From Botryococcus braunii (taxonomy: Eukaryota; Chlorophyta; Trebouxiophyceae), in assembly GCA_002005505.1 (NCBI GenBank), contig KV908575.1:62001-126000 (forward strand): a stretch of 64,000 bases of DNA, given 5' to 3'. The notes beneath the pieces were generated by a model. The model did no database searches, was not told the origin of the DNA, and saw only the letters and a list, made by a program, of their open reading frames with translations. The translations under genes were made by a program, and so were the position numbers. Positions 15,923 through 64,000 of this stretch are shown here, piece by piece (the first letter of the stretch is position 1; each line of letters starts with the position of its first letter).

Positions 15923-16616
15923 TGTTGAGTTCTGAACATTATTATTGAATGCCTTGTGCTTTAAGTGATCTTCATGTGTGCACTATTAGGATATGGGTCC
16001 ATTGAGAACATAAGGTACCTTGAGACACGGCAGATTCTGGACGTTTTCGAACATAAGGTACAATCCTATCTAGATCACACGTTTGTCGGATGAACTCTTA
16101 AGGCTGCCCCACCGGAGTGAATACCAACTGGTTGTGAAAGATGCTGGGCATCACCAGATGCTAGTCTTGTCCGACAGTTGTGTGTGGCACTCAGCAGACA
16201 GTCGTACGGACTGTAGCTGGAGTAACTTCGTCTATTGACGACCTGTCTGCTTTGTACAGGTACGGTGCGGCAGTGTGTGTTGTATCATTGTTGCTATTGT
16301 GAGAGTGAACAAGCTTAGTGTACCCTGTAGTCACTCAAACAGATAAGGGACAGTGACTTCAGGGAGTATAGGCATGTACTTGAACGTAGCCGTCTAGAGC
16401 CTTATCTAGTGATTGCTTGATCGGTGCTTGTGTACAAGATAATGATGTAACGGAACTGGTTGTGAAAGATGCTGGGCATCACCAGATGCTAGTCTTGTCC
16501 GACAGTTGTGTGTGGCACTCAGCAGACAGTCGTACGGACTGTAGCTGGAGTAACTTCGTCTATTGACGACCTGTCTGCTTTGTACAGGGAAAGCCGATTG
16601 CCCATAACCTTTCACA
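15923..16616 (+). repeat. Copia C 5' LTR
   Basis: Starts TGTTGAGTTCTGAAC and ends CCCATAACCTTTCACA. It contains the R1/R2 duplication and two copies of GAACATAAGGTAC (about 16003 and 16048). Its 3' end GCCCATAACCT is the inverse of AGGTTATGGGC just inside the element, giving an 11-bp perfect stem across the LTR/primer-site junction. Confidence 0.95.
16126..16588 (+). repeat. R1/R2 duplication with intron-like spacing in the C LTR
   Basis: R1 16126-16260 and R2 16454-16588 are identical over 135 bp. R1 ends TTTGTACAG followed by GTACGG (donor); R2 ends TTTGTACAG followed by GGAAAG (acceptor with a good pyrimidine stretch). The implied intron is 16260-16587, 328 bp. Its removal leaves a single copy of the segment. 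The same layout is in the 3' LTR (22444-22578, 22772-22906). Confidence 0.88.
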
Positions 16617-16648: not shown

Positions 16649-16715
16649 AGTAAAAGCAGGAGTGAAGGTCGTCTACGGATGGGTCAGACGTAAGCGTCAA
16701 CAAAGGAGCTCGAGC

Positions 16716-16799: not shown

Positions 16800-17006
16800 A
16801 GTTTTAGCTGTGCTTTATCATTCATAGACGTTGTCTAGAAGCACTGAGTGAGTCGGGCCGGACTCCGGCGCAAACTTCTGAGGGGAACATATCTGCTACT
16901 ACTGTGCAAGACTGGCTGGTAAATTTCCATGACATGGAGGGAATTGTAGGGTATTGCTGCATTCCAGAAGTTTATGAGTAAGTTTGGCTGGTGAAGTGAC
17001 AATAGT

Positions 17007-20000
17007 ATGACAAAAAGGGGCAAAGAAAAGGAAAGTAGCAGTGAAACAGCAATGTCTCAACCTGGAGAAGTCAGTGGGGCCACTCCAGGGCAGTCTATGA
17101 CCGGGACACAATCAGCCACTGCAGAACCAAAGGTGGAGATTGACAAGGCAGCCTACATCCCCAATACCTCTAATCCAAAGATGACTGTCATGCTTGATGA
17201 TGGAGGGCGCAATTTTGAATTTTGGTATGAAAATTTGGAGGCGTGCGCAAACACCAAGGGGGTCAGAGCGGCTTTGGAGAGGCCAATGCCAGGGTCGGTG
17301 GAGAACTCAGCCATCAAGCAGTGGCTGATCCAGTCAGTTCCAGTCATCTGGCATTCTCAGATCTCATGCCACAAAGCAGCGTTCGACTTCATCGCGTGGG
17401 TGAAGAACAGTCACACTGGAGGGAGCAACCAAGACATCAACCTTGAGTGGTACAAGGAAATGGAGCAGGGCATCAAGACAGGGGAGACACTCAAGGTCTA
17501 CCTCTACAGAATGATGGATCTGGCTACAAGTCTCAGAAACAACGCGTTCATCCTCTTGGACCACAATGTTGGGGAGCTGATGGTGAAGGGCCTCCCTCCT
17601 GTGCTGAGGCTCGAGTCCCTGGAGGTTATGGCAACCGACAAGCCGCCATTGGAGCTGATTCAAAGAATCCTGCGCGCCGCAGCCAGCCGTGGGTACAAGG
17701 ACCCACCTGCAGAGGGAACACCTCAGGCCATGGCAGCTGCAGCAGTGGCTGGTCCCTCTGGGGGGGTAGCTGGAGCGTCATCAAGCGCTGGAGCTGCACC
17801 AGGAGTGGGAGCAGTACCGGGAGTTGGAGCAGCACTACCAGCAAACGAACAGCCTCCCGCTGGCCCCTCTGCAACTACTTTTGGTGGCAGGGGGCGTGGA
17901 CCTGGCAGGGCAAGAAGGCCCAGAGAGGAGCTTACATGCCACTTCTGCAAGGCAAAGGGCCACTTCATGACTGACTGCGGACCGCTCAGGCAGCTGCAGG
18001 CTCTGCATCAAAACATGCAAGCGGCAAGCGTTGGGCCTGCAGCTTACTGGGGCCAGGGAGGCCCACAGTCGTCTCCTCAAGCCTGGTGGGACCATGGATC
18101 TGGCCGGGGTGGCCCGCCTTCATCCGCTTCCAGCCCTGGACCTCCTTCAGCATATAACTATCCAACAAGTCAACACACGTTTCCGGGGTGGCATTTACCA
18201 CCTCCACCCCCTCCTTCTGGTGAGGCGATGTTTATCTCTCTCAATGTGCTTGCCCCAACTTCGCATGGAGCTAGCAGCACATCTTGGTTAATAGATAGTG
18301 GTGCCTCTGTGCATATAGTCAATGATCTCTCATTGCTCCATAATCCAGTTATGCATAGACAGCCTCTTCCTCTGCACTTGGCAACCTCAGACGCCAAGGG
18401 AGGAATCATTGCATCTGGGTCTGTATGCCTTGTGAATGCAAGGCACGAAGTATTCTGGCTGCACAATGTGCAGTGTGTTCCTTCTGCGCATACCAACCTC
18501 ATTTCAGTCACTGGTGCAATTCAGGATGGAGCATCTTTCCTGACTGACACTGCAGGTGGTTACACAGCCATGAAGGGACCTGAAGGGTGGTGTGGAGATA
18601 TCACCCGCGCACGAGGTCTGTTTTTTTTGGAGTTTGTTAGTCCTGTCAGAGGGCAGCAAGTTGGCTGCAGACATATTGATCACATGGCTGAGGCGTCTCA
18701 TCTTAGGAAAGGACACGTGTGTAGCGAGAGATCTCTGTGGCATGCTAGGTTAGGTCATCCTGGTGCCAGCAGCATGCAGAGGTTCTCCAAGGAAGATCTG
18801 GTTACAGGAATCAATATCTCCCTTGCTCCCTGCTCTGAGTGCCCCAAGCACTGTGAATCGTGTATACAAGGGAAACACTCCAGACCTCCTTTCCCTGTAT
18901 CTTCCAGGCCTGCACATCACCCACTCGATAGAGTCCATGTGGATACTGTGGGTCCCATATCACCTCCTGCCATCACAGGTGAACGATATTGGGTCACTGT
19001 AGTGGATGAAAGTTCACACCAAGTTGCCTCCCTGCCTGTGAAGTCAAAGGATGGCATCCCAAAGGCTGTGATAGACCTGCTCCGTTTTTGGCAGACCCAA
19101 CGAGGCACGGTTGTGAAGTGTGTGAGGACTGACAGGGGTTCAGAGTTCCTGAACCAGCAATTCAAAGAGTTTTGTGCTCAGCAGGGCACTAAGATGGAGT
19201 CCTCAGCGCCCTACACGCCTCAGCAGAATGGGGTGGCGGAGAGGATGAATAGGACCCTGAAGGAGCGAACAAGGACTCTGTTGGTCCATGCTGCAGCAGA
19301 CCCCTCCCTTTGGAAGGAGGCGCTTGAGACAGCTACCCTCCTCTACAATGTGGGTCCTACTTCAGGCAGGTCCCTGACCCCCATGGAATTATTCTTTGGT
19401 GTCAAACCTGATGTGTCTGTGCTGCGCACGTTTGGCTGTGTAGCCCATGTGCACATTCCCAGTGGCCAAAGGTCTGTTTTTGGGCCCAAGACCATCCCTG
19501 GGATGTTTACTGGTTATTGTCCCCAGTCTAAAGCGTATCGTGTGTACGTGGGGAATGGAGTGTGGAAGGAGAGTAGGGACGTCAGCTTTATCGAGCACTT
19601 GAGGGGGGCTGAGAGAGTGGGTCTATCAAAGGTCCAGCCTGGGTCTGTCTATGATTCTAGGATATCACCCCCCCTTGGCAGTGAGAATCTGGCAACGCCT
19701 CAAGCAATTCCCTCTGCTGCTCCACCCACGTTCTGGGATGAGGAGGATGACCATGGAGTGGAGACGCTTTCCACTGGGGCTCCTGGGACCTCTGGACTTT
19801 GTGCTGGGGATCAGTCTGGAGACGGGACCACAGCAGCACATGACCAAGGAAACCCCACCAGCCTGGATTCTACTGTTGGGACCCCAGAACCATCTCAGCA
19901 CTCGTGGTCGGTGCTTGAGCATATGCAGAATCTGGCCAGGGGGGGTGTAGAAACTCAATCCCAGGTAGAAAAAATGCAGAAGGTACAAGAGGGGTTGCGA

Positions 20001-22220: not shown

Positions 22221-22229
22221 AGCATGCAG

Positions 22230-22240
22230 GCAAGGGGAAG
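22230..22240 (+). promoter_or_regulatory. Polypurine tract of copia C
   Basis: GCAAGGGGAAG lies directly before the 3' LTR start TGTTGAG. Confidence 0.88.
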
Positions 22241-22934
22241 TGTTGAGTTCTGAACATTATTATTGAATGCCTTGTGCTTTAAGTGATCTTCATGTGTGCA
22301 CTATTAGGATATGGGTCCATTGAGAACATAAGGTACCTTGAGACACGGCAGATTCTGGACGTTTTCGAACATAAGGTACAATCCTATCTAGATCACACGT
22401 TTGTCGGATGAACTCTTAAGGCTGCCCCACCGGAGTGAATACCAACTGGTTGTGAAAGATGCTGGGCATCACCAGATGCTAGTCTTGTCCGACAGTTGTG
22501 TGTGGCACTCAGCAGACAGTCGTACGGACTGTAGCTGGAGTAACTTCGTCTATTGACGACCTGTCTGCTTTGTACAGGTACGGTGCGGCAGTGTGTGTTG
22601 TATCATTGTTGCTATTGTGAGAGTGAACAAGCTTAGTGTACCCTGTAGTCACTCAAACAGATAAGGGACAGTGACTTCAGGGAGTATAGGCATGTACTTG
22701 AACGTAGCCGTCTAGAGCCTTATCTAGTGATTGCTTGATCGGTGCTTGTGTACAAGATAATGATGTAACGGAACTGGTTGTGAAAGATGCTGGGCATCAC
22801 CAGATGCTAGTCTTGTCCGACAGTTGTGTGTGGCACTCAGCAGACAGTCGTACGGACTGTAGCTGGAGTAACTTCGTCTATTGACGACCTGTCTGCTTTG
22901 TACAGGGAAAGCCGATTGCCCATAACCTTTCACA
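22241..22934 (+). repeat. Copia C 3' LTR
   Basis: 694 bp, apparently identical to the 5' LTR, including both R copies. Followed by TSD TTCAC. Confidence 0.95.
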
Positions 22935-23013: not shown

Positions 23014-23584
23014 TTACTTTTGAGGATTATGCCCCGGCCCTTTTCCCTTCCAATGTCCTCCCCGGCCACCACGGCCCTTCCACTGCCCACCTCGAGCTTG
23101 ATTAGAGGGAAAAGGAGGAGGTGGGGGCAATTGGCTGTCGCGCCTGCTCTTCCTTTGCAAGTAGTCCCGCTTGGCCTGACATTGCCATTGCTCGTGACCA
23201 AAGTTTTTGCAGAAGTAACACTGGCGCTCGGAGGGGACGCTAGTCCGAGAATCTAACTTCCCACCAACGCTGTGGCCGACGGCTCCAAGCACAGGCCCCT
23301 GGGTGAATCCCGGAAAGTGTGCCGGCGTGCTTATGGGAGTCCTCTTCACAGCGTTGAGAACCTTCCTTCCTTCCTGTCCCCTCAGCATCCCCCCTGACTT
23401 TAAGTTACTTTCATATTGCACCACATAAGTGCACAATACGTCGAGGTCTGAGAATCTAACACCAGTTTGTGGGTTTATCGTGCAAGCAACTCTAATATGA
23501 GCATTCAAGCCTTTGAGAAACATGTATATTTTATCATTTTCGCATATCTCATACTCAGTTTCAACGTCACTCAAGAGCGTTACA
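23014..23584 (-). pseudogene. Element B gag, C-terminal part with zinc knuckle
   Basis: Encodes LLSDVETEYEICENDKIYMF (gag core), a CCHC knuckle CYFCKNFGHEQWQC and a Gly/Arg-rich tail ending GPGHNPQK at TAA 23014-23016. It matches element E gag residue by residue. The upstream end is cut by chromovirus D. Gag binds and packages element RNA into particles; pol lies in a separate downstream frame. Confidence 0.9.
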
Positions 23585-23845
23585 TGTAGCATTTCCTAGG
23601 GTATAATGCTCTAGTATGGTCCTTGGCATTGCTCATTGACTTGCCATGTGATCTGGGTTCGCAGTACAACCTCGCTCAGGTAGTTCGCTCGGTTGCCCGA
23701 CTACGCGTCTGAGGCAGTACAGTATAATTCAACCCACCCTGGGTTTAAGAGTGGGCTTGCGAATCAATCATGTAACACTCTTTCGTTGCACACCACGAAC
23801 GTCTCACTGTCTCATAAAAACCTCTTCCGCTTAGTTAACGCTACA
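23585..23845 (+). repeat. Chromovirus D 5' LTR
   Basis: Starts TGTAGCATTTCC and ends TTAACGCTACA. It matches 29658-29918 and the solo LTR at 30787-31044. At 261 bp it is the shortest LTR family here. Confidence 0.94.
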
Positions 23846-40920: not shown

Positions 40921-41825
40921 TTTTCGTGTAATGGCATCATCAAAATAAACTTCGCAGAATTTGAAGTTAAATGTTATTCCCTGTGAATCACACTCTTTAG
41001 AGTTGGTGAACTGTGCTCAAACAAAAGCTTGCAGTAGTGGACGAAACACGACCAAGCAAACGGCACAGGAGTCTGATAAGGGAACTCAGAACTATGACAA
41101 TAACGACTAACTAAGGATGTTGCAATCACCTGTGAATCACACTCTTTAGAGTTGGTGAACTGTGCTCAAACAAAAGCTTGCAGAAGTGGACGAAACACGA
41201 CCAAGCAAACGGCACAGGAGTCTGATAAGGGAACTCAGAACTGACTGGCCTCTAAGAGCACTCCTTATTTATACTAACTAAGGAGACTACATGTTCATTA
41301 GCCTCCTGACAGGTTTGCAACTCCAGATCTTAAAAGCGTACGGGCACGATCAAGTTTGCATGCCATCAGTACTATGCACTGGAACTTCAATGTACCTTAT
41401 GATTCGACATGGTCGTTGATGAACAGTACGAATCTCGGTCGAAGATAGTCTCGAATCTAAGTGACTCGGAAGTTTAACTCACAACCGATACAAGTCTCGG
41501 ATCAAACACCAAGGACCGCAGGACTTAAAGTCTCACGATCGATGAGATCCGGAATGATAATACCTTTACTAAGAAACTCGCAGAAAACAGGCCGAAATTG
41601 TACCATGGCCCCTATGAATCACTATGAGTGCCATTTGCCCTTAAAGTACCTTACAGTACAAACACACCCAAGTGAAATATGACTGTACTCTATTGTTTAT
41701 GAGTATTGTAAGTCTTATAAAGCCTTGCAATGAATTGATGTGGCTCACAAACATGCTAACATGAAATGACCCAACATATTGCTCAAATACCTAAGGTATA
41801 CATGTTGGTGTCCATTTTTCTAACA
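40921..41825 (-). repeat. Copia A 5' LTR
   Basis: 905 bp, paired with 6797-8459. Contains R1 (41242-41130) and R2 (41093-40981). TSD AATGG follows at 41826. Confidence 0.93.
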
Positions 41826-47260: not shown

Positions 47261-47952
47261 TGTTGTAATAGATGAGTTATTTATGCCTTTCCCTCAGTGG
47301 AGTAATAGTGGCTTTTCCGTCAGTGACAATAATAAAGGACAAATATGGGCGAAACTGCAAAGACATCGTATTATGGTCAATTTGAATGTAGATAAAGATA
47401 ACGCAAGTTACAGACACGTTTAGTGCAGGAAGGTAGTGGTGCTAGCACGGAGAGGCAAGGCACTTGATTTGGACTACACAAGCACTCCGGGTGTTTCCTT
47501 AAAGTTGCCCAATGAGTCCTTGATTGTTCATGTCCTAGACTCTACTCTTCGTCACACAGTAGAGCGGACCGTGACTCACACCCTCCGTGCCGCCACTGCA
47601 CAGGTAACGTGATTGTGAATAGAATAGGAGATTTGAGGCTCTGTTAGCCTTTAGTATTTCATGTTATGTGTATGTGCTTGGCTATCTTATCATCGGACAA
47701 TGAGATTGATCCTTTCTGAGTATGTACCAGTCAGAGTAGTTTGAATTCCGTTGTTAAGAGAGAGCAAGTGAGCAATTGTAATAGACTTGATTGGGACTAC
47801 ACAAGCACTCCGGGTGTTTCCTTAAAGTTGCCCAATCAGTCCTTGATTGTTCATGTCCTAGACTCTACTTTTCGTCACACAGTAGAGCGGACCGTGACTC
47901 ACACCCTCCGTGCCGCCACTGCACAGGAATACGCCAAGCCCATAACCTAACA
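47261..47952 (+). repeat. Copia F1 5' LTR
   Basis: Starts TGTTGTAATAG and ends CCCATAACCTAACA; 692 bp. Its start resembles the F2 LTR (shared TGCCTTTCCCTCAG). It is followed by the half-tRNA primer site. The partner LTR and TSD lie beyond the window. Confidence 0.78.
47462..47926 (+). repeat. R1/R2 duplication in the F1 LTR
   Basis: R1 47462-47603 and R2 47785-47926, 142 bp each with only a few differences. R1 ends GCACAG followed by GTAACG; R2 ends GCACAG followed by GAATAC. The implied intron is 47604-47926 (323 bp). Confidence 0.87.
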
Positions 47953-47985
47953 GGTTATGGGCCCACCACTCTCCCGTTGAGTGTG
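47953..47985 (+). promoter_or_regulatory. F1 primer site for half initiator tRNA-Met
   Basis: GGTTATGGGCCCACCAC is complementary to GTGGTGGGCCCATAACC of the tRNA-iMet anticodon stem and loop. With the LTR end it forms the same 11-bp stem as in copia C (GCCCATAACCT / AGGTTATGGGC). Confidence 0.8.
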
Positions 47986-48736: not shown

Positions 48737-49467
48737 TGTTATAATAGTGATAGAATATTTTGGTGCCTTTCCCTCAGAAGAGTAATAGTGGCCAGATCAG
48801 TTCCAATTACCAGTGAGAGCATTTATTAGAATGAGTAATAGGTGGCAGAACCTAGGAGTTCTGCCAGAACCAATCTAGACCAATTATACGTTAATAAGGG
48901 AGGATGAGGTGATCGGACACGGTTTGCTCGAAAAGCTATATGCTCCTGGCTCGAAGGAATGAGGCACTTGATTGGGACATCAAAAGCACTTCGGGTGTTT
49001 GCTACTTCACTGTTGCCAGTCAAGTCACCTTATTCACAGTCGACACTGCTTGTTACTCGACACACAACAAGAGTGTCGCCAGGCTAAACACCCTCGTGCC
49101 GGGTCATACAGGTAAACTGTTGTCAGGACATGACGTGCACAAGAACAATGGATTAGGAAAGGGTCTAGATAATGTGTATTAGAAAGGTGCTAATGTTTTA
49201 GCTCATCGGACATCGGTAATGCAGACTATCAGTAATTTCGTAGATAGAGTAGTTTGAATTGCTGAGTGATGAGAGAAAGCAATAAGCATTGTAAGACTTG
49301 ATTGGGACATCAAAAGCACTTCGGGTGCTTATCTCTTGACTGTTGCCTATCAAGTCCTCATTCATATTCGGTCACTGCTTGTTCTCCTACACACAACAAG
49401 AGTGCCGACGAGCTAATCACCCTTCGTGCCCGGGTCATACAGGAAACGCCAAGCTCAGAAGTTTTCA
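48737..49467 (+). repeat. Copia F2 5' LTR
   Basis: Starts TGTTATAATAG, ends AGTTTTCA; 731 bp; inserted in F1 gag (flank AAAAG). It is followed by GGTTATGGGCCCACC (primer site, 49468 on). It lacks the CCCATAACC stem partner at its 3' end that C and F1 have. Confidence 0.83.
48966..49442 (+). repeat. R1/R2 duplication in the F2 LTR
   Basis: R1 48966-49111 and R2 49296-49442 start alike (ACTTGATTGGGACATC) and end CATACAG, but are visibly diverged in the middle. R1 is followed by GTAAACTG, R2 by GAAACG. The implied intron is 49112-49442 (331 bp), almost the same length as in C (328) and F1 (323). Confidence 0.85.
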
Positions 49468-49500
49468 GGTTATGGGCCCACCAACTCATACTCTGAGCAC
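49468..49500 (+). promoter_or_regulatory. F2 primer site for half initiator tRNA-Met
   Basis: GGTTATGGGCCCACCAACTC directly after the LTR shares the GGTTATGGGCCCAC core with C and F1. Confidence 0.78.
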
Positions 49501-53000: not shown

Positions 53001-53296
53001 GGAGAGAGCTGTGAGCGAGTGGGGTTGACTGAATGTGACACCGAGTCACAGGGACCAGAGGAAGTGCAGGAAAAAGGTCAGGATCCTGAGAGACCTGCAT
53101 CACATGTGAGCGATGAGAGGGGGACAGTCTCTGATCAGACTGAGGATGGTCCAAGTGAGCTGAGTTGCCTGGGTGGGACCTGTTCAGTACCTGAGGAAAT
53201 TGTTAGAGACGTGAGCTCTGTCTGTAATGCCCAAAGACAATGTGGTGCCAGCCACACAAGTGTGGGCCATGCTTGTGAGTGTGCTGCTGGGCCTGC
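50076..53296 (+). pseudogene. Copia F2 gag-pol, first part (gag, protease, integrase)
   Basis: The start was chosen at ATG 50076 (MAKKGSSTSEAS), which aligns with F1 gag; the frame is also open upstream over ORF1. Gag core (AAMLLMYESVPEEWLG, MKRGETISQYVSRM), zinc knuckle CNYCHRRGHFWRDC, protease SWLVDSGASVHLV, GAG-pre-integrase FLWHSRLGHPGEPWM, integrase D in IHIDTVGPISP, D in IRCDRGTEF, E in NGIAERANRTL. The frame is open until copia C2 inserts at 53297 in the variable linker and resumes at 60314. Confidence 0.92.
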
Positions 53297-53990
53297 TGTT
53301 GAGTTCTGAACATTATTATTGAATGCCTTGTGCTTTAAGTGATCTTCATGTGTGCACTATTAGGATATGGGTCCATTGAGAACATAAGGTACCTTGAGAC
53401 ACGGCAGATTCTGGACGTTTTCGAACATAAGGTACAATCCTATCTAGATCACACGTTTGTCGGATGAACTCTTAAGGCTGCCCCACCGGAGTGAATACCA
53501 ACTGGTTGTGAAAGATGCTGGGCATCACCAGATGCTAGTCTTGTCCGACAGTTGTGTGTGGCACTCAGCAGACAGTCGTACGGACTGTAGCTGGAGTAAC
53601 TTCGTCTATTGACGACCTGTCTGCTTTGTACAGGTACGGTGCGGCAGTGTGTGTTGTATCATTGTTGCTATTGTGAGAGTGAACAAGCTTAGTGTACCCT
53701 GTAGTCACTCAAACAGATAAGGGACAGTGACTTCAGGGAGTATAGGCATGTACTTGAACGTAGCCGTCTAGAGCCTTATCTAGTGATTGCTTGATCGGTG
53801 CTTGTGTACAAGATAATGATGTAACGGAACTGGTTGTGAAAGATGCTGGGCATCACCAGATGCTAGTCTTGTCCGACAGTTGTGTGTGGCACTCAGCAGA
53901 CAGTCGTACGGACTGTAGCTGGAGTAACTTCGTCTATTGACGACCTGTCTGCTTTGTACAGGGAAAGCCGATTGCCCATAACCTTTCAAA
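53297..53990 (+). repeat. C2 5' LTR
   Basis: 694 bp with R1 53500-53634 and R2 53828-53962. One change (C to A) in the terminal CA relative to the 3' LTR. Confidence 0.95.
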
Positions 53991-54022
53991 GGTTATGGGC
54001 CCACGCCCTTCCAGCTGAGCCA
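53991..54022 (+). promoter_or_regulatory. C2 half-tRNA primer site
   Basis: GGTTATGGGCCCACGCCC, identical to the site at 16617. Confidence 0.8.
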
Positions 54023-54089
54023 AGTAAAAGCAGGAGTGAAGGTCGTCTACGGATGGGTCAGACGTAAGCGTCAACAAAGGAGCTCGAGC

Positions 54090-54173
54090 ATGGCGCAGCG
54101 GCGCAAGGGAACTCGAGTGTACCAGGACCATTATCTTACTCACAGTTTACCTTTCTGGGAAATTCATAATTGA
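54090..54173 (+). CDS. C2 short basic leader ORF
   Basis: Same 27-codon frame as 16716-16799 in C, without change. Confidence 0.28.
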   Translation: MAQRRKGTRVYQDHYLTHSLPFWEIHN

Positions 54174-54380
54174 AGTTTTAGCTGTGCTTTATCATTCATA
54201 GACGTTGTCTAGAAGCACTGAGTGAGTCGGGCCGGACTCCGGCGCAAACTTCTGAGGGGAACATATCTGCTACTACTGTGCAAGACTGGCTGGTAAATTT
54301 CCATGACATGGAGGGAATTGTAGGGTATTGCTGCATTCCAGAAGTTTATGAGTAAGTTTGGCTGGTGAAGTGACAATAGT

Positions 54381-57300
54381 ATGACAAAAAGGGGCAAAGA
54401 AAAGGAAAGTAGCAGTGAAACAGCAATGTCTCAACCTGGAGAAGTCAGTGGGGCCACTCCAGGGCAGTCTATGACCGGGACACAATCAGCCACTGCAGAA
54501 CCAAAGGTGGAGATTGACAAGGCAGCCTACATCCCCAATACCTCTAATCCAAAGATGACTGTCATGCTTGATGATGGAGGGCGCAATTTTGAATTTTGGT
54601 ATGAAAATTTGGAGGCGTGCGCAAACACCAAGGGGGTCAGAGCGGCTTTGGAGAGGCCAATGCCAGGGTCGGTGGAGAACTCAGCCATCAAGCAGTGGCT
54701 GATCCAGTCAGTTCCAGTCATCTGGCATTCTCAGATCTCATGCCACAAAGCAGCGTTCGACTTCATCGCGTGGGTGAAGAACAGTCACACTGGAGGGAGC
54801 AACCAAGACATCAACCTTGAGTGGTACAAGGAAATGGAGCAGGGCATCAAGACAGGGGAGACACTCAAGGTCTACCTCTACAGAATGATGGATCTGGCTA
54901 CAAGTCTCAGAAACAACGCGTTCATCCTCTTGGACCACAATGTTGGGGAGCTGATGGTGAAGGGCCTCCCTCCTGTGCTGAGGCTCGAGTCCCTGGAGGT
55001 TATGGCAACCGACAAGCCGCCATTGGAGCTGATTCAAAGAATCCTGCGCGCCGCAGCCAGCCGTGGGTACAAGGACCCACCTGCAGAGGGAACACCTCAG
55101 GCCATGGCAGCTGCAGCAGTGGCTGGTCCCTCTGGGGGGGTAGCTGGAGCGTCATCAAGCGCTGGAGCTGCACCAGGAGTGGGAGCAGTACCGGGAGTTG
55201 GAGCAGCACTACCAGCAAACGAACAGCCTCCCGCTGGCCCCTCTGCAACGACTTTTGGTGGCAGGGGGCGTGGACCTGGCAGGGCAAGAAGGCCCAGAGA
55301 GGAGCTTACATGCCACTTCTGCAAGGCAAAGGGCCACTTCATGACTGACTGCGGACCGCTCAGGCAGCTGCAGGCTCTGCATCAAAACATGCAAGCGGCA
55401 AGCGTTGGGCCTGCAGCTTACTGGGGCCAGGGAGGCCCACAGTCGTCTCCTCAAGCCTGGTGGGACCATGGATCTGGCCGGGGTGGCCCGCCTTCATCCG
55501 CTTCCAGCCCTGGACCTCCTTCAGCATATAACTATCCAACAAGTCAACACACGTTTCCGGGGTGGCATTTACCACCTCCACCCCCTCCTTCTGGTGAGGC
55601 GATGTTTATCTCTCTCAATGTGCTTGCCCCAACTTCGCATGGAGCTAGCAGCACATCTTGGTTAATAGATAGTGGTGCCTCTGTGCATATAGTCAATGAT
55701 CTCTCATTGCTCCATAATCCAGTTATGCATAGACAGCCTCTTCCTCTGCACTTGGCAACCTCAGACGCCAAGGGAGGAATCATTGCATCTGGGTCTGTAT
55801 GCCTTGTGAATGCAAGGCACGAAGTATTCTGGCTACACAATGTGCAGTGTGTTCCTTCTGCGCATACCAACCTCATTTCAGTCACTGGTGCAATTCAGGA
55901 TGGAGCATCTTTCCTGACTGACACTGCAGGTGGTTACACAGCCATGAAGGGACCTGAAGGGTGGTGTGGAGATATCACCCGCGCACGAGGTCTGTTTTTT
56001 TTGGAGTTTGTTAGTCCTGTCAGAGGGCAGCAAGTTGGCTGCAGACATATTGATCACATGGCTGAGGCGTCTCATCTTAGGAAAGGACACGTGTGTAGCG
56101 AGAGATCTCTGTGGCATGCTAGGTTAGGTCATCCTGGTGCCAGCAGCATGCAGAGGTTCTCCAAGGAAGATCTGGTTACAGGAATCAATATCTCCCTTGC
56201 TCCCTGCTCTGAGTGCCCCAAGCACTGTGAATCGTGTATACAAGGGAAACACTCCAGACCTCCTTTCCCGGTATCTTCCAGGCCTGCACATCACCCACTC
56301 GATAGAGTCCATGTGGATACTGTGGGTCCCATATCACCTCCTGCCATCACAGGTGAACGATATTGGGTCACTGTAGTGGATGAAAGTTCACACCAAGTTG
56401 CCTCCCTGCCTGTGAAGTCAAAGGATTGCATCCCAAAGGCTGTGATAGACCTGCTCCGTTTTTGGCAGACCCAACGAGGCACGGTTGTGAAGTGTGTGAG
56501 GACTGACAGGGGTTCAGAGTTCCTGAACCAGCAATTCAAAGAGTTTTGTGCTCAGCAGGGCACTAAGATGGAGTCCTCAGCGCCCTACACGCCTCAGCAG
56601 AATGGGGTGGCGGAGAGGATGAATAGGACCCTGAAGGAGCGAACAAGGACTCTGTTGGTCCATGCTGCAGCAGACCCCTCCCTTTGGAAGGAGGCGCTTG
56701 AGACAGCTACCCTCCTCTACAATGTGGGTCCTACTTCAGGCAGGTCCCTGACCCCCATGGAATTATTCTTTGGTGTCAAACCTGATGTGTCTGTGCTGCG
56801 CACGTTTGGCTGTGTAGCCCATGTGCACATTCCCAGTGGCCAAAGGTCTGTTTTTGGGCCCAAGACCATCCCTGGGATGTTTACTGGTTATTGTCCCCAG
56901 TCTAAAGCGTATCGTGTGTACGTGGGGAATGGAGTGTGGAAGGAGAGTAGGGACGTCAGCTTTATCGAGCACTTGAGGGGGGCTGAGAGAGTGGGTCTAT
57001 CAAAGGTCCAGCCTGGGTCTGTCTATGATTCTAGGATATCACCCCCCCTTGGCAGTGAGAATCTGGCAACGCCTCAAGCAATTCCCTCTGCTGCTCCACC
57101 CACGTTCTGGGATGAGGAGGATGACCATGGAGTGGAGACGCTTTCCACTGGGGCTCCTGGGACCTCTGGACTTTGTGCTGGGGATCAGTCTGGAGACGGG
57201 ACCACAGCAGCACATGACCAAGGAAACCCCACCAGCCTGGATTCTACTGTTGGGACCCCAGAATCATCTCAGCACTCGTGGTCGGTGCTTGAGCATATGC

Positions 57301-59594
57301 AGAATCTGGCCAGGGGGGGTGTAGAAACTCAATCCCAGGTAGAAAAAATGCAGAAGGTACAAGAGGGGTTGCGAATGCAGGGGAAGTCACAAATTCCCCT
57401 TCCTCCAGGGACCACCCTTACAAGGGAGCAGCGTTATGTACAGCGCGTGGCTAGGAGAGAGCATTCTGACATCCCATTGCATGCCCCTGACCCAGGTCAG
57501 GCAATTGTGAGTGAGCCAAACATGGTTGGTCTCCCTGATATGCAGGGGCAGGTTGAGACAGTCGAGGCTATGTTCGGTGCAGATGTAAGAGATGAGAGCA
57601 GTGGGTTAGACATGCCAGCAGTAGGGGAAGCTGGTGCCCAATCCCAGTCACTGGCTAGTCATGCTTATGGTGTGCAGGCTGACATTGTAGGCGCAGCTCA
57701 GGCAAGTCTGGGTAGTGTGCCCAAGTGTGAGTCCAGGAGAGAGAGAGAGCTGCTGCTCCCCTCTGCATTGCGGAAGGTGCGAGAATGTAAGGGTGCTGCA
57801 CATGAGTCCAGTAGTCAAGGAGAGAGAGAGAGACTTGAGAAGGAATCAGATAATCCCGGCAGTACTGCCCAGTCCCAGCATAAGGTACATAATGTACCTT
57901 ATTCTGGCAACCAGGGAGAGAGAGAGAGAGAAGGGAACAGCATCAGTAAGGCTGACAGCCCTGCTGCACCACAGCATAAGGTACAGAGTGTACCTTCTGT
58001 CACGTTGGGAAAAGTTCACGTGCCCTCAAACTTGAGGGAAGCCCAGCGCTCACCTCAGTGGGAGTTTTGGCAGCAGGCAATGCAAGAGGAGATGGAGTCT
58101 TTAGACACCCATGAGGTTATGCAGTATGTGGAAAGACCCCATGGGCAGAAAGTTATCCCTGTTCATTGGATTTTTTCTACAAAAAACGATGCACATGGGA
58201 ATGTCACTCGGTTTAAAGCAAGATTGGTTGCCCAGGGTTGCAGACAGATTCCTGGTATAGATGTTGGTGAGGTTTTTGCACCTACCAGCAGCTATGGTGC
58301 TAGGAGAGCTGTGTTGGCAGTGGCTGCCACACAAAATCTTGAGATCCACCAAGTGGATATCAAGACAGCTTTTCTCAATGGGGAGTTGGAGGAAGAGGTC
58401 TATGTGACCCAACCACCAGGATTTGAGAATGGCAACACGAGAGTTGTGTGCAAGCTCAGGAAGGCACTCTACGGTCTTAAGCAAGCCCCACGGGCTTGGC
58501 ACAAGACCTTGAGCGACAAGTTGAGCGTGATGGGGTATAGTGTGTGCAAGAGCGACGCTGGGGTATACATCAGGAGGGCCCCTGATGGTAATCTGTCGTT
58601 TATTCTTGTTTATGTCGATGATCTTCTCATAGTTGCCAGAGTGGTTGCAGAGATTGAGTGGGGGAAAGAGTTATTGAAGAAGGACTTCACCATCCATGAT
58701 TTGGGAGAGGTGAATGATTTCCTGGGGTGTCAGGTCCTACGCAATAGAGTTCAGGGCACTATTTCCATGAGTTGCACTCCCAAGATTGATGCTCTTGTGG
58801 AGAAGTTTGGCGTTGCTGATGATGGACGTGGGGTTGATACCCCCATGTCCAAGGACTTCGTGGCTAGCAGCAGACCCGAGTCCTCAGATGGTATGTCACA
58901 TGGGGCTGGTACCCCTCTGCCACCTGGTCATCGATACTGCGAGTTAATTGGATCGTTACTGTACATAGCCAATACGACCCGGCCTGACATTTCTCAGGCT
59001 GTTGGAGTGTTGTCAAGGTATAGAATGACACCCACTACCTCACACTGGAATGAGGCCATTCGAGTGCTGAAGTACTTGAGAGATACCAGAGAGTTAGCTC
59101 TTACTCTGGGTGGAAAGGGCCCTGAGCTAGAAGGCTATGTTGATGCCGACTATGCTGGGGACCTGGACCACAGGTATTCCACCACTGGCTATGTTCTATC
59201 AGTCTATGGTAGTGCCGTGGTTTGGGGAAGCAAGAAGCAGAGCTCAGTTGCTACCTCAACTGTGCAAGCTGAGTTTATGGCAGCTGGCCATATTGTGAAG
59301 GAAGCCAACTGGCTAAGGGGCTTCTTGGAAGAGATAGGGGCTGCACCTTGGAGGGTCAAAATTTTCTGTGACAACCAAGGATGCATTTCTAATTTACGGA
59401 ACCCCCTGTATTCCAAATTCACAAAGCACGTTGCAGTAAGCTTCCACTACGCTAGGGAAGCTATGGCACTTGGGCAGGTAGATATCCTCTATGTGGAATC
59501 TGCACGCAATGTGGCTGACATTATGACCAAGCCACTTGCCAAGCCCGTGTTTGTTGGTCATCGTGATTCACTAGGTTTGAGAAGATACACTTAA
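54381..59594 (+). CDS. Copia C2 gag-pol polyprotein, 1737 aa, intact
   Basis: Same domain order and catalytic residues as the copy at 17007-22220. Substitutions seen include Gly to Cys in VKSKDGIPK (integrase) and Pro to Ser in GTPEPSQH (linker). None affects the protease, DDE, YVDD or RNase H motifs, although the new Cys lies inside the integrase core. Both copies could supply proteins in trans. Confidence 0.96.
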   Translation: MTKRGKEKESSSETAMSQPGEVSGATPGQSMTGTQSATAEPKVEIDKAAYIPNTSNPKMTVMLDDGGRNFEFWYENLEACANTKGVRAALERPMPGSVENSAIKQWLIQSVPVIWHSQISCHKAAFDFIAWVKNSHTGGSNQDINLEWYKEMEQGIKTGETLKVYLYRMMDLATSLRNNAFILLDHNVGELMVKGLPPVLRLESLEVMATDKPPLELIQRILRAAASRGYKDPPAEGTPQAMAAAAVAGPSGGVAGASSSAGAAPGVGAVPGVGAALPANEQPPAGPSATTFGGRGRGPGRARRPREELTCHFCKAKGHFMTDCGPLRQLQALHQNMQAASVGPAAYWGQGGPQSSPQAWWDHGSGRGGPPSSASSPGPPSAYNYPTSQHTFPGWHLPPPPPPSGEAMFISLNVLAPTSHGASSTSWLIDSGASVHIVNDLSLLHNPVMHRQPLPLHLATSDAKGGIIASGSVCLVNARHEVFWLHNVQCVPSAHTNLISVTGAIQDGASFLTDTAGGYTAMKGPEGWCGDITRARGLFFLEFVSPVRGQQVGCRHIDHMAEASHLRKGHVCSERSLWHARLGHPGASSMQRFSKEDLVTGINISLAPCSECPKHCESCIQGKHSRPPFPVSSRPAHHPLDRVHVDTVGPISPPAITGERYWVTVVDESSHQVASLPVKSKDCIPKAVIDLLRFWQTQRGTVVKCVRTDRGSEFLNQQFKEFCAQQGTKMESSAPYTPQQNGVAERMNRTLKERTRTLLVHAAADPSLWKEALETATLLYNVGPTSGRSLTPMELFFGVKPDVSVLRTFGCVAHVHIPSGQRSVFGPKTIPGMFTGYCPQSKAYRVYVGNGVWKESRDVSFIEHLRGAERVGLSKVQPGSVYDSRISPPLGSENLATPQAIPSAAPPTFWDEEDDHGVETLSTGAPGTSGLCAGDQSGDGTTAAHDQGNPTSLDSTVGTPESSQHSWSVLEHMQNLARGGVETQSQVEKMQKVQEGLRMQGKSQIPLPPGTTLTREQRYVQRVARREHSDIPLHAPDPGQAIVSEPNMVGLPDMQGQVETVEAMFGADVRDESSGLDMPAVGEAGAQSQSLASHAYGVQADIVGAAQASLGSVPKCESRRERELLLPSALRKVRECKGAAHESSSQGERERLEKESDNPGSTAQSQHKVHNVPYSGNQGEREREGNSISKADSPAAPQHKVQSVPSVTLGKVHVPSNLREAQRSPQWEFWQQAMQEEMESLDTHEVMQYVERPHGQKVIPVHWIFSTKNDAHGNVTRFKARLVAQGCRQIPGIDVGEVFAPTSSYGARRAVLAVAATQNLEIHQVDIKTAFLNGELEEEVYVTQPPGFENGNTRVVCKLRKALYGLKQAPRAWHKTLSDKLSVMGYSVCKSDAGVYIRRAPDGNLSFILVYVDDLLIVARVVAEIEWGKELLKKDFTIHDLGEVNDFLGCQVLRNRVQGTISMSCTPKIDALVEKFGVADDGRGVDTPMSKDFVASSRPESSDGMSHGAGTPLPPGHRYCELIGSLLYIANTTRPDISQAVGVLSRYRMTPTTSHWNEAIRVLKYLRDTRELALTLGGKGPELEGYVDADYAGDLDHRYSTTGYVLSVYGSAVVWGSKKQSSVATSTVQAEFMAAGHIVKEANWLRGFLEEIGAAPWRVKIFCDNQGCISNLRNPLYSKFTKHVAVSFHYAREAMALGQVDILYVESARNVADIMTKPLAKPVFVGHRDSLGLRRYT

Positions 59595-59603
59595 AGCATG
59601 CAG

Positions 59604-59614
59604 GCAAGGGGAAG
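59604..59614 (+). promoter_or_regulatory. C2 polypurine tract
   Basis: GCAAGGGGAAG before the 3' LTR. Confidence 0.87.
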
Positions 59615-60308
59615 TGTTGAGTTCTGAACATTATTATTGAATGCCTTGTGCTTTAAGTGATCTTCATGTGTGCACTATTAGGATATGGGTCCATTGAGAA
59701 CATAAGGTACCTTGAGACACGGCAGATTCTGGACGTTTTCGAACATAAGGTACAATCCTATCTAGATCACACGTTTGTCGGATGAACTCTTAAGGCTGCC
59801 CCACCGGAGTGAATACCAACTGGTTGTGAAAGATGCTGGGCATCACCAGATGCTAGTCTTGTCCGACAGTTGTGTGTGGCACTCAGCAGACAGTCGTACG
59901 GACTGTAGCTGGAGTAACTTCGTCTATTGACGACCTGTCTGCTTTGTACAGGTACGGTGCGGCAGTGTGTGTTGTATCATTGTTGCTATTGTGAGAGTGA
60001 ACAAGCTTAGTGTACCCTGTAGTCACTCAAACAGATAAGGGACAGTGACTTCAGGGAGTATAGGCATGTACTTGAACGTAGCCGTCTAGAGCCTTATCTA
60101 GTGATTGCTTGATCGGTGCTTGTGTACAAGATAATGATGTAACGGAACTGGTTGTGAAAGATGCTGGGCATCACCAGATGCTAGTCTTGTCCGACAGTTG
60201 TGTGTGGCACTCAGCAGACAGTCGTACGGACTGTAGCTGGAGTAACTTCGTCTATTGACGACCTGTCTGCTTTGTACAGGGAAAGCCGATTGCCCATAAC
60301 CTTTCACA
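59615..60308 (+). repeat. C2 3' LTR
   Basis: 694 bp with R1 59818-59952 and R2 60146-60280, ending TTTCACA. Confidence 0.95.
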
Positions 60309-60313: not shown

Positions 60314-61355
60314 GCCCCAGCGCTCATGTTTGGCAGGGAGCAGACAGAGAGAGAGAGAGACATGGGCACATCACCAAGACAGACCAAGTGTCCAAGCTGT
60401 GCAGAGTGGTTCAATTGCCTGTGAGAGCTCTGACGAGGCTGAAGCACGTCAGTCATGTAAGAGTGTGGATGAGGAGGTGAATCGGAAGCTTGGACAGTGT
60501 GAGAATTTGCCCAATTACAAGAGCTTTCCGAGAGATACCTGTGTCTGGGAGGATGATGTGAGAGTGCGAAGCAGTAAGCTCGAAAGGGCAAACTGTGAGT
60601 CTAAGAGAGAGAGAGAGAGCAGCGAGGAAAGTCAGACTCCTCACAAACTGCACCCTGGTGCAGTGCAGCGTCAGTCAGCGAAAGAGTAGTGGGTGAAAGA
60701 GAGAGTGAGAGCAAGCCAGATCAGGGGAAGCACACAGGGGTACGGTTTGGGAAGATTAGTGTGCCTTCCAGCTTGAGGGAGGCACAGAAGTCCCCTCAGT
60801 GGGAATATTGGAAGGCTGCTATGCAAGAAGAGCAGCCCACGAGGTCATGGAGTATGTCCCGAGACCTCGTGGTCATAAAGTACTTCCAGTCCATTGGATC
60901 TTTTCAGTGAAAATGGATGCCCATGGCAATGTGCTGAGGTTCAAGGCTAGGCTGGTAGCTCAAGGATGCAGGCAAATTCCTGGAGTAGATGTCATGGAAG
61001 TCTTTGCACCAACTAGCAGTTATGGATCCAGGAGAGCCTTACTGTCAGTGGCTGCACAAGAGGGTCTTGAAATTCACCAGGTGGATGTCAAGACTGCTTT
61101 CCTGAATGGAGAATTAGAGGAGGAGGTGTATGTCACACAACCTCCTGGGTTTGAAAATGGGATGGGAACACAGTGTGTCGCTTGAAGAAGGCATTGTATG
61201 GCCTGAAGCAAGCTCCAAGGGCATGGCATAAGACCCTTAATGAGAAGCTGCATACCATGGGCTATGAAGTGTGCAAGAGTGATGCTGGGGTCTATGTGAA
61301 GTGCTCAGTCGATGGAGGAAAGTCATTTGTGTTGATTTATGTAGATGATCTACTG
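60314..61355 (+). pseudogene. Copia F2 gag-pol, second part (linker and RT), broken
   Basis: Continues the 53296 frame after C2: a linker with RQRERET and KRERESS runs to a TAG at 60687-60689. It then reads in another frame (FGKISVPSSLREAQKSPQWEYW), loses about a dozen bases near MQEE, reads the RT core in a further frame (PVHWIFSVKMDAHG, QVDVKTAFLNGELEEEV), and shifts again near 61170 before KKALYGLKQAPRAWH and FVLIYVDDLL. It ends exactly at the H LTR (61356), so RNase H is displaced beyond the window. Confidence 0.9.
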
Positions 61356-61361
61356 TGTGAT

Positions 61362-61598
61362 CTGCAAAGATCCAACGGTGTTATATTAATCATAAATGAT
61401 GACTATACTCACAAGTATATCATCCATGTACTTAATCAGTTTGACCAAGACATACATAGTCGACAGCGTCAAACTGATGAACAATTCACGTATAGCAATT
61501 GCTTCCACAGAAGTTTCTCACAACAAGTGAGAGAGAAAGAAAGCAATTCACATGAGTCCATTCAGGAGTCGGCTTAACAAGCCAAAGAGATCGAATGA
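61362..61598 (-). repeat. H LTR R2: spliced copy, 237 bp
   Basis: On the minus strand it runs from TCATTCGATC to GGATCTTTGCAG. It equals R1 with exactly the two GT-AG introns removed (414 minus 85 minus 92 = 237) and has the same outer boundaries. Confidence 0.92.
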
Positions 61599-61706
61599 CT
61601 TACAAACTACTGTCGAACGAACACACACACTAAATAGTCTTACCTGCAAAGATCCAAAGGTGTTATATTAATCATAAATGATGACTATACTCACAAGTAT
61701 ATCATC

Positions 61707-61791
61707 CTGTGAACACACTAACACCTTTAGTTCATTGCATATGATGAACCTTATCTATAAGCACCCCTCAGCCGTCACATAGCTGACTTAC
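61707..61791 (-). other. Intron 2 in H LTR R1, 85 bp
   Basis: GTAAGTCAGC donor, TTCACAG acceptor on the minus strand; precisely missing from R2 between CATG and GATGATAT. Confidence 0.88.
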
Positions 61792-61853
61792 CATGTACTT
61801 AATCAGTTTGACCAAGACATACATAGTCGACAGCGTCAAACTGATGAACAATT

Positions 61854-61945
61854 CTGCAACATTCACATACCCATATTAGTCTCTGATCATCAAAACGGCA
61901 CTTATGGCCGTGATCAAAAACATGACCGGCAGAGCCCCGACTTAC
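61854..61945 (-). other. Intron 1 in H LTR R1, 92 bp
   Basis: GTAAGTCGGG donor, GTTGCAG acceptor on the minus strand; precisely missing from R2 between ATACGTG and AATTGTTC. It is unrelated in sequence to intron 2 beyond the donor. Confidence 0.88.
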
Positions 61946-62396
61946 CACGTATAGCAATTGCTTCCACAGAAGTTTCTCACAACAAGTGAGAGAGAAAGAA
62001 AGCAATTCACATGAGTCCATTCAGGAGTGGGCTTAACAAGCCAAAGAGATCGAATGACTGCCTGGTGGTCCGGGTTCTCTGGCTATCTGTACTCAGATCA
62101 GCGCGTGGGAAACGCGCTGTCCAGCACTGCTACTGGCCTTTTTCACGAACATTAGGACATGCTCAGGGTTCCTATCCACAGAATTTGGACCCTTATCCTA
62201 CAGTAACACATTTATTAACTCTAGATGCATGTCTTCCAGCCACTAAAGGCTGGAAGGTATTTACAGCCATAGAAAAAATATCTCTCAATGCATTAATACT
62301 CATAGATTGATCGTTCATAGCCATTGTCAAGATGTCTTTACCTTGAGTTAACTGCTTGGTTAACTTACAGCTAATTATTACATGTGATTGTACCTT

Positions 62397-62440
62397 CACA
62401 CACGCACGCACGCACGCACGTGCACGCACGCACGCACGTT
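62397..62440. repeat. (CACG)n microsatellite within the H LTR
   Basis: Alternating CACG/CGCA units with a central CGTGCACG palindrome near the LTR start; such alternating purine-pyrimidine DNA can form Z-DNA. Confidence 0.85.
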
Positions 62441-62475
62441 AATTAACATGACATAATGAAGTACAAAACCCAACA

Positions 62476-62488
62476 ATCTTCCCCTTGC
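62476..62488 (-). promoter_or_regulatory. Polypurine tract of copia H
   Basis: The minus strand reads GCAAGGGGAAGAT directly before LTR start TGTTGGG; almost the same tract as in copia C. Confidence 0.85.
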
Positions 62489-62500: not shown

Positions 62501-64000
62501 TTAATTAAAAGCAGGTCCTGACACACTCAATTTAGCCCTATGCTTCTCAAATGCAGCAGATGCCAGTGGTTTGGTAAACATATCTGCTACATTTTCAGAT
62601 GTAGCAACATAGACAGGGTCAATCTGCCCCCAAGCCACTTTCTCACGTGCATAATGATAGCTGATGCTGATATGCTTAGTGAACTTTGACACTATGTGAT
62701 TTTTCAAGTGCTGTATAGCCCCTTGATTGTCACAGAATAGCTTGACAGTCTTCACTGTGACTCCAAGCTCTTCCAGCATACCACCCATCCACATTACCTC
62801 CTTTACTGCCGCAGCAGTCGCAACAAATTCAGCTTCCACAGTAGATGTAGACACTGAAGATTGCTTCTTGCTGCACCAAGACACTGCTGACCCGTTTAGA
62901 AGAAGAACAAACCCTGTGGTTGATTTTCTTCCATCCAAGTCACCAGCAAAATCTGCATCCACGTATCCCACCAACTCATTGTCACCAGAGTTAGTGTACA
63001 TTATGCCCATTTCCTTAGTGCAATTTAAGTACCTCAGTACTCTTATAGCACCATTCCAATGCGCTGTCGTAGGTTGCCCCCTGAACCGACTCAAAACCCC
63101 CACAGCCTGAGCTATGTCAGGCCTATTTGTGGTAGCTAGGTATTGTAGTGATCCCACGAGCTCCAGATACCTGTGACCCTCTGGCAATGGTGTGCCTGCT
63201 CCTACCTGCTCACCACCAGCCCCCAAGGGTGGCTCTGGATTTTGTGAAGTGACAAACCCATGCGCCATTGGAGTATCAACATCCCTGCCTTGTGCAGGAA
63301 GTCCATACTCCTCCACCAGCCTCTCAATTTTTAATACGTTAGTCATCTTGAGGCTCCCAGTGGTCTCATCTTTGGTGATTTCACATCCCAGAAATGATTT
63401 AATCTCACCAAGATCATGAATAGAGAAACTACAAGTGAGCTTAGATTTGACTTGCTCAATGGTTTCCCCTTCCTTGCATACAATCAACAAGTCATCAACA
63501 TAAGTCAGCAAGTAAACATGTGACTCATAGGATTCCTTGTTGACAAACAGTGATGAATCGCTTTTGCAGGCAGTAAAGCCAAACTTGCTAAGCTCTTCAA
63601 CAAGGCGCTTATGCCACGCGCGTGGGGCCTGCTTCAGGCCATACAATGATTTCAGAAGCTTACATACTCTACTCGAATCACCATTAGAGAAACAGGGGGT
63701 TTGAGTTACATAAACTTCCTCCTCTAAGGACCCATTAAGAAAGGCAGTTTTAATATCTACCTGATGTACCTTCCATCCCTTAGCGTTTGCCAGATTCAGA
63801 AGCACACGCCTGGACGAGTGTGTACTGACAGGAGCAAAAGTCTCAAAATAATCCACCCCTGGTCTTTGTTTGCATCCTTGTGCCACAAGCCTCGCCTTGA
63901 ACCTGATTACATCCCCAAAACCATCAGTTTTAATTGCATAAACCCACTTCAGTGGGATCACCTTGGCATGGGAAGGCTTGTGACAGTATTCAAATGTCTC
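62501..64000 (-). CDS. Copia H polyprotein, C-terminal RT and RNase H (runs off the edge)
   Basis: Open from the window edge to the stop at 62501-62503, with no break. RT: IPLKWVYAIKTDGFG, FKARLVAQGCKQRPGVDYFE, QVDIKTAFLNGSLEEEV, SLYGLKQAPRAWHK, catalytic LTYVDDLLIV (about 63495), FSIHDLGEIKSFLGC. RNase H: VGYVDADFAGDLDGRKSTTG, SKKQSSVSTSTVEAEFVA, FCDNQGAIQHLKN, SENVADMFTKPLAS. It is related to C but distinct. The true start, gag, integrase and 5' LTR lie beyond 64000. It may be functional. Confidence 0.93.
   Translation of the reverse strand, partial: ETFEYCHKPSHAKVIPLKWVYAIKTDGFGDVIRFKARLVAQGCKQRPGVDYFETFAPVSTHSSRRVLLNLANAKGWKVHQVDIKTAFLNGSLEEEVYVTQTPCFSNGDSSRVCKLLKSLYGLKQAPRAWHKRLVEELSKFGFTACKSDSSLFVNKESYESHVYLLTYVDDLLIVCKEGETIEQVKSKLTCSFSIHDLGEIKSFLGCEITKDETTGSLKMTNVLKIERLVEEYGLPAQGRDVDTPMAHGFVTSQNPEPPLGAGGEQVGAGTPLPEGHRYLELVGSLQYLATTNRPDIAQAVGVLSRFRGQPTTAHWNGAIRVLRYLNCTKEMGIMYTNSGDNELVGYVDADFAGDLDGRKSTTGFVLLLNGSAVSWCSKKQSSVSTSTVEAEFVATAAAVKEVMWMGGMLEELGVTVKTVKLFCDNQGAIQHLKNHIVSKFTKHISISYHYAREKVAWGQIDPVYVATSENVADMFTKPLASAAFEKHRAKLSVSGPAFN

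Follow-up and report, generated by a model that had tools for sequence, protein, structure and literature searches.

Introns beside their own spliced copy in the LTR of a Botryococcus braunii Copia element suggest a leader spliced before reverse transcription

Reverse transcription of RNA normally loses introns, and LTR elements must silence the poly(A) signal in their 5' LTR. A long terminal repeat found in a 64,000-nucleotide stretch of Botryococcus braunii DNA (hereafter the window), belonging to a Copia-type element designated H, raises the question of how an LTR can hold introns next to a copy of the same sequence that lacks them. A sequence-only reading of the window had claimed that one internal repeat of this LTR, R1, contains two introns and that the other, R2, equals R1 with the introns removed; the sizes, places and ends agree with this claim, but the two are not identical, since 2 of the 239 sites paired between the R1 exons and R2 of the window copy (LTR positions 447/906 and 818/1100) show different bases. 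R1 base 447 and R2 base 1100 are each private to the window copy among the first 30 LTRs. Both introns have GTAAGT...CAG ends. The edges of the LTR parts (Table 1) were defined from the R1/R2 repeat and the GT-AG rule; the sequence shared by R1 and R2 takes in the AG at the 5' edge, and the CAG before R1 thus lies partly inside the repeat. The spacer between the repeats ends with TGTAA, a poly(A)-type signal, the final A of which is the first base of R2, and in the 5' LTRs of H the primer-binding site (PBS) follows the tail. The H LTRs have TG...CA ends (TGTTGG...ATCACA), a CAGTA target-site repeat, read from the flanks of two H LTRs (L001 and L002), and the polypurine tract AAGGGGAAGAT. The insertion point of H (61340-61356) is the YVDDLL reverse transcriptase motif of a different Copia element, which is broken and spans about 60700-61355.

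Table 1. Positions of the LTR parts of element H and of the similarly organised LTRs of other Copia families (window coordinates unless a contig is given)
Feature	Position	Strand	Remarks
3' LTR of copia element H	61356..62475	-	1120 nt, TGTTGG...ATCACA
Partner (5') LTR of H	C264:129372-130491		about 6 kb off, beyond the window
H U3, putative promoter part, 5' of R1	62060..62475	-	LTR 1-416
H R1 exon 1	61946..62059	-	LTR 417-530; proposed transcription start at its first base
H R1 intron 1	61945-61854	-	LTR 531-622; 92 nt, missing in R2
H R1 exon 2	61792..61853	-	LTR 623-684
H R1 intron 2	61791-61707	-	LTR 685-769; 85 nt, missing in R2
H R1 exon 3	61644..61706	-	LTR 770-832; end CAG/GTAAGA (exon/donor)
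H spacer	61601..61643	-	LTR 833-875; donor GTAAGA to TGTAA
H R2, copy of R1 without introns	61362..61600	-	LTR 876-1114; end CAG is the proposed acceptor
H tail, from R2 to LTR end	61356..61361	-	LTR 1115-1120; ATCACA
H polypurine tract CAAGGGGAAGAT	62476..62487	-	adjoins the LTR
H reverse transcriptase and downstream pol end	62501..64000	-	runs past the window; RVT_2 6.1e-63
Family A, first element, 5' LTR	15923..16616	+	R1 16126-16259 then GTACGG; R2 16454-16587 then GGAAAG; PBS 16617-16629
Family A, first element, 3' LTR	22241..22934	+	R1 22444-22577, R2 22772-22905
Family A, second element, 5' LTR	53297..53990	+	R1 53500-53633, R2 53828-53961
Family A, second element, 3' LTR	59615..60308	+	R1 59818-59951, R2 60146-60279
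Family B	47462..47965	+	R1 47462-47603 (CAG, then GTAACG), spacer end TGTAATAG; R2 47785-47926 (CAG, then GAATAC); PBS 47953-47965
Family C	48966..49480	+	R1 48966-49111 (CAG, then GTAAAC), spacer end TGTAAG; R2 49296-49442 (CAG, then GAAACG); PBS 49468-49480

Profile searches point to the Ty1/copia group. The reverse transcriptase profile RVT_2 matched both H (6.1e-63) and family A (2.3e-62), a second Copia family of the window; apart from RVT_2, no Pfam family was reported in the H stretch (E 0.001), where no Penelope-type reverse transcriptase was found. The family A polyprotein places the integrase (rve, 641-742) before the reverse transcriptase (RVT_2, 1249-1494); the integrase of H is encoded beyond the window. 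H is assigned to Ty1/copia by its reverse transcriptase and the domain order is taken from family A; the likeness to Ty1/copia lies in RVT_2, the TG...CA LTR and the polypurine tract for H and in the integrase preceding the reverse transcriptase for family A. A homologue search with the H polymerase scored 8000 candidates and yielded 6514 proteins, 120 of them listed; viral contigs searched with one H polymerase protein gave no match, and no viral relative of the polymerase was confirmed among 55 stretches with an alignment. The PBS word GGTTATGGGCCCA, which looks like the complement of the anticodon region of initiator-Met tRNA, a region used by copia-type elements, occurs 1906 times in the genome versus once for its reversed control; elements primed via GGTTATGGGCCCA are therefore very numerous. 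Yeast Ty5 is reportedly primed by a tRNA fragment or anticodon region. Half-tRNA priming is described for Drosophila copia (PMC5371799).

The arrangement seen in the window is not peculiar to one H copy. The genome (176 Mb, 989 contigs) was searched for H copies by DNA similarity, which gave matches over the full query length in 40 of the 40 candidates scored, out of 282, and with a pattern for the R1/spacer junction (at most 3 mismatches), which did not require R2 and gave 113 matches versus 2 for its reversed control; 100 of the 113 were listed and all 100 were examined, and very diverged H copies, or copies devoid of the junction, would escape the search. The 108 loci, some of them representing the same LTR, correspond to 95 LTR entries from 73 elements, the expanded LTR of element C89 counting as two entries; five loci with less than 500 nt of aligned LTR were dropped, all of which reach into R2, to LTR position 1118-1120. 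The sequence-only reading had called for an alignment of R1 and R2 across the H copies, and the paired structure recurs throughout: all 95 entries, among the matches listed, continue from R1 into R2, which retains at least 200 of its 239 bases in 89 entries, is truncated within R2 in five and belongs to the expanded C89 LTR in one. In the 86 entries (67 elements) picked for complete R1 exons and R2, both R1 introns are preserved, with no fewer than 84 of 92 and 72 of 85 bases, and none of them has an intron inside R2; 86 is here a sample size and no test, because the entries were picked for aligned R1 exons and R2. The splice-site dinucleotides in the complete copies are largely intact, with GT in 84/86 and AG in 85/86 for intron 1, GT in 85/86 and AG in 77/86 for intron 2, GT after R1 in 86/86 and AG at the end of R2 in 84/86; the spacer ends with TGTAA in 84/86 and with TGTGA in 2/86. 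Insertions in R2 of two copies (L066 and L090) were considered as retained introns and rejected, being a 19-nt filler and a partial tandem duplication of exon 2.

The layout also extends beyond H to other Copia families, some of which lack introns inside R1. Besides H, six families or subfamilies, named A, A2, A3, B, C and D, possess it; A (two elements, four LTRs), B and C were found by self-comparison of the window, and D was first encountered in the flank of an H fragment (L104). Outside H, the DNA examined up to that point contained five exact PBS sites, each of which shows the layout, as do four of four further sites (two of A2, one each of A3 and D) drawn from the first 100 of the 1906 genomic occurrences, representing the first contigs only. 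R1 ends with CAG/GT (exon/donor) and R2 with CAG in all seven families and subfamilies, H included, and GGTTATGGGCCCA lies within about 40 bases after R2 in the non-H families. R1 equals R2 in 135/135 aligned columns in A, 137/137 in A2, 132/140 in A3, 140/143 in B, 132/157 in C and 143/143 in D (two loci), while the likeness of R1 between families is 57-86% for pairs above the 55% listing threshold and lower for the rest, H being outside this comparison. The difference between the R1 sequences of the two D loci recurs in their R2. The seven families and subfamilies are not fully independent: A, A2 and A3 stand close to one another, and there is also a relationship among B, C and D. Families A and D have an R1 without internal introns. 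The only other LTR type examined in the window, of 263 nt (23583-23845), gave no internal repeat in the self-comparison and has one TGTAA, and the paired CAG/GT and CAG edges are absent from the direct repeats of the window that were checked (5709/6046, 43980/44335 and 6856/7005). Two of these direct-repeat pairs, 5709-5800/6046-6137 and 43980-44073/44335-44427, have a spacing of 337 and 355 nt; a 114-nt tandem duplication occurs at 6856-7118 and again at 40980-41242, inside a longer repeat that is present in two dispersed copies.

A comparison of R1 and R2 within and between H copies clearly indicates their concerted evolution. In the first 30 LTRs, exon variants present in several copies sit in both repeats of those copies, and the remaining exon variants are singletons. 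The 95 entries contain 32 exon variants present in at least two elements; for the seven variants found in R1 of at least six elements (sites 441, 501, 524, 525, 527, 805 and 810), the matching R2 site is changed in nearly the same copies. For the 7 R1 sites with a minor allele in at least 5 of 67 elements, R2 of the same copy carries the equal allele in 62 to 67 elements. With one copy taken per element (n = 67), R1 and R2 differ at 174 sites in total versus 324 ± 11 for shuffled R2 partners, a value as low as the observed one being reached in 0 of 20,000 shuffles; inside one copy, R1 diverges from R2 by 1.1%, about half the between-copy value. This result supports the earlier proposal that R2 was copied from spliced RNA of the element. 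There is also evidence against recurrent rewriting of R2: 18 of the 32 exon variants, each present in at most five elements, are never common to R1 and R2 of one element (11 are found in R2 only, 5 in R1 only and 2 in R1 of some elements and R2 of others), and the R2 variants 1071C and 1093C occur in 5 elements each.

The timing of the R1-R2 match can be read from elements with both LTRs, of which 20 were used, the C89 element (three entries) being excluded. The 5' and 3' LTRs of these elements differ at 17/4773 sites in R1, 23/4485 in R2 and 56/11131 elsewhere (0.36-0.51%), and R1 differs from R2 at 19/4550 and 27/4708 sites (0.42% and 0.57%), whereas different H elements diverge by 1.9-2.2%. 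R1 and R2 of one LTR are thus of about the same age as the insertion. Since the divergence between R1 and R2 is about that between the 5' and 3' LTRs, R2 appears to be rewritten at about every transposition, in accordance with the earlier suggestion that R2 is renewed each cycle with the introns kept in R1. In the six elements with no base difference between the LTRs, R1 equals R2 exactly in five, in both LTRs, and the match therefore most likely predates insertion. The exception, C43, has LTRs without base differences, yet its R1 and R2 differ at two sites; this mismatch counts against the rewriting model, and it is as expected if the two LTRs of the parent had diverged beforehand.

These comparisons bear directly on the idea that a cDNA of the spliced leader was once inserted, or introduced by template switching, into an ancestral LTR and was passively inherited afterwards. 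R2 plainly derives from spliced RNA and a single event of origin is needed at some point, but passive copies would drift, whereas the R1-R2 divergence is about half that between copies and equals that of LTR pairs in two-LTR elements; R1 equals R2 inside families whose R1 sequences are only 57-86% alike or less, and the co-variation of R1 and R2 contradicts passive inheritance, which makes such an explanation extremely unlikely. Recurrent rewriting of R2 from spliced RNA, by comparison, appears well supported.

The predicted ends of the RNA are consistent with such rewriting. In all seven families and subfamilies TGTAA ends no more than 3 nt from where R2 begins, and in none of the seven is it found in the 30 nt upstream of R1; the chance of TGTAA in that place for a random window position is 0.005 for each of the seven, which are not fully independent. 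UGUAA is described as the chlorophyte poly(A) element, with a peak about 17 nt before the cleavage site (PMC1868727). The position of TGTAA together with this peak therefore suggests that the 3' end of the RNA is probably just inside R2, roughly ten bases from its start. Transcription probably begins at the start of R1, the simplest reading of the 5' edge common to R1 and R2. The promoter words for such a start are weak: by eye, TATA-like words are seen near -30 of R1 in A, A2, A3, C and D, and similar words precede R2 in H (TATTTAG, about 36 nt upstream) and B (TTAAG). The sequence-only reading had taken the edges of R1 for an acceptor and a donor; the donor is kept here, but the 5' edge is better taken as a transcription start, as other families lack CAG before R1. 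A splice acceptor or trans-splice site at the 5' edge of R1 was rejected, since the other families have GGC, AGC, GCC, AGG or ACC there. One may also suppose an ordinary LTR cycle, in which transcription starts at R2, the leader is not spliced and R1 is a dispensable upstream duplicate; TGTAA just before R2 combined with a start at R2 would make a normal LTR with a short R, and the TATTTAG of H would suit it. This scheme, however, predicts that R1 and R2 evolve separately, which their concerted evolution contradicts, and it leaves the splice-site edges in seven families and subfamilies unexplained; we give it almost no credence.

Taken together with the layout, which is directly observed in several families with its splice-site edges, these results make it very likely, in our opinion, that H carries a self-regenerating LTR intron and that a spliced leader rewrites R2 from R1 in each cycle. 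In the cycle that we infer, transcription would begin at the first base of R1, and both internal R1 introns would be spliced out of the 5' leader of H. A further leader intron would extend between the donor that follows R1 and the CAG ending R2, a pairing that is proposed here; removal of this intron would take away the spacer, the poly(A) signal and R2 and leave spliced R1-tail-PBS, identical to R2-tail-PBS. Splicing would in this way also free the 5' leader of its poly(A) signal. At the other end, the RNA would be cleaved some twelve bases beyond TGTAA and hence a few bases into R2. With the spliced leader as template, minus-strand strong-stop DNA would consist of the tail and spliced R1, and its 3' end, the copy of the first bases of the RNA, would pair with the few R2 bases at the RNA 3' end; extension would then copy the unspliced spacer, R1 and U3 from the 3' LTR, giving a new LTR composed of U3, R1 with introns, spacer, spliced R2 and tail. 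As the strong-stop DNA would supply R2 and the tail, and the 3' LTR would supply R1 and the spacer, R2 would be rewritten from R1 each cycle. The exon-end CAG may serve as the exon side of the donor in R1 and as the acceptor in R2, the donor being retained in R1. Such a transfer of strong-stop DNA made on the spliced leader would account for the lack of introns in R2 and for the splice-site edges, and it would also explain the concerted evolution and where TGTAA stands. The strand-transfer model put forward in the sequence-only reading is supported by the DNA record in this modified form, in which, because the RNA appears to end just inside R2, the annealing stretch would be short. The model gives no reason why splicing in the 3' LTR spares the R1 introns; an uncapped exon 1 there is only a suggestion. 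Considering the whole large group of Copia elements with GGTTATGGGCCCA, it seems likely that obligatory splicing of the 5' leader is used as a step of reverse transcription and that the intron regenerates itself from spliced RNA.

An unspliced leader would yield, according to the same model, an LTR of the structure U3-R1-spacer-R1-spacer-R2-tail. An expanded H LTR on C89 (L060, C89:211073-212653) has the organisation U3-R1-spacer-R1-spacer-R2, its partner LTR being normal, and the visible part of an A2 LTR (L111), spacer-R1-spacer-R2, contains an extra R1-spacer unit. Both could be products of an unspliced leader, and unequal exchange gives an equal product. These two LTRs indicate that exchange between R1 and R2, or a process with the same product, does occur, and they speak for the view that gene conversion or unequal exchange at the DNA level homogenises R1 and R2 after insertion, recurrent reverse transcription of spliced RNA playing no part. 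Gain of introns in R2 or their loss from R1 would then be expected, but neither is seen in the 95 entries save for the C89 unit, and the exact match in five of the six elements with difference-free LTRs most likely arose before insertion; we consider this explanation very improbable. Template switching is common in LTR elements and, if it took place between the two repeats during reverse transcription of unspliced RNA, might also homogenise them; here, too, intron loss or gain would be expected and is absent from the same entries apart from the extra unit in L060, and switching does not explain why all seven families and subfamilies have splice-site edges; its probability is very low. Rewriting from a spliced leader is the reading retained here, and it has to be confronted with damaged splice sites. 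The acceptor of intron 2 (LTR position 769) is changed from AG to AT in nine LTR entries of eight elements, including both LTRs of C520 and one LTR of C568; the dropped fragment L104 adds a tenth case. Seven of the nine entries show the R2 junction, which is normally spliced in every one of the seven. On the tree, the copies with the AT acceptor form one small group and scattered copies; siblings of a damaged parent together with repeated mutation could explain them, but the model does not predict them.

The copia cycles known so far use a single R region, which is copied from a leader that has not been spliced; in the present elements, in contrast, the leader is apparently spliced between the transcription start and the PBS, and R2 would be rewritten from the spliced leader. 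Penelope-like elements retain introns and resemble H as retroelements that bring introns through copying, but they have another class of reverse transcriptase and another copying mechanism, whereas H is a Copia element by its reverse transcriptase profile. In foamy (spuma) retroviruses, a splice donor in the LTR lies upstream of the poly(A) signal, and U1 snRNP suppresses 5' polyadenylation (PMC3694450). The likeness of H to them, by sequence only, is one of working and not of membership: the donor-like GT at 61643 lies 39 nt before TGTAA (61604-61600). The foamy virus abstract describes U1 binding, and the account mentions no duplicated leader exon, second R or leader splicing before the PBS. 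Cer1 is an LTR element with a subgenomic spliced RNA (PMC12786077) and shares with H the splicing of element RNA, but the spliced mRNA of Cer1 encodes a protein, whereas splicing in H would shape the 5' end of the reverse-transcribed RNA. The sequence-only reading had known of no described LTR element with this layout, and the open-licence literature, a scope that leaves most subscription journals outside, likewise gave none among the titles and abstract openings listed; the replication route would be a variant not found described. If the proposed cycle is true, the layout would solve both difficulties named at the outset, since splicing would strip the 5' signal and reverse transcription would restore the intron; an intron would be inherited via its own spliced RNA, and the LTR replication cycle would include an extra splicing step. 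The comparison of R1 with R2 would offer a natural record of the last cycle of an element, a second clock within one LTR, and the layout makes it directly testable which form of the RNA is reverse transcribed.

Two minor observations concern primer sites and recent activity. The H element of the window carries the PBS variant TGGTACTGGGC, as read from L002, and the 5' LTRs of H (e.g., L002 versus L007) have two versions of the primer site, TGGTACTGGGC and TGGTTATGGGC, the latter fitting the other families. The two family A elements of the window (15922-22934 and 53296-60308) are 99.87% identical over 7,013 bases, and the two LTRs of each match without a difference over 694 and 692 bases; this near-identity indicates very recent activity of the family.
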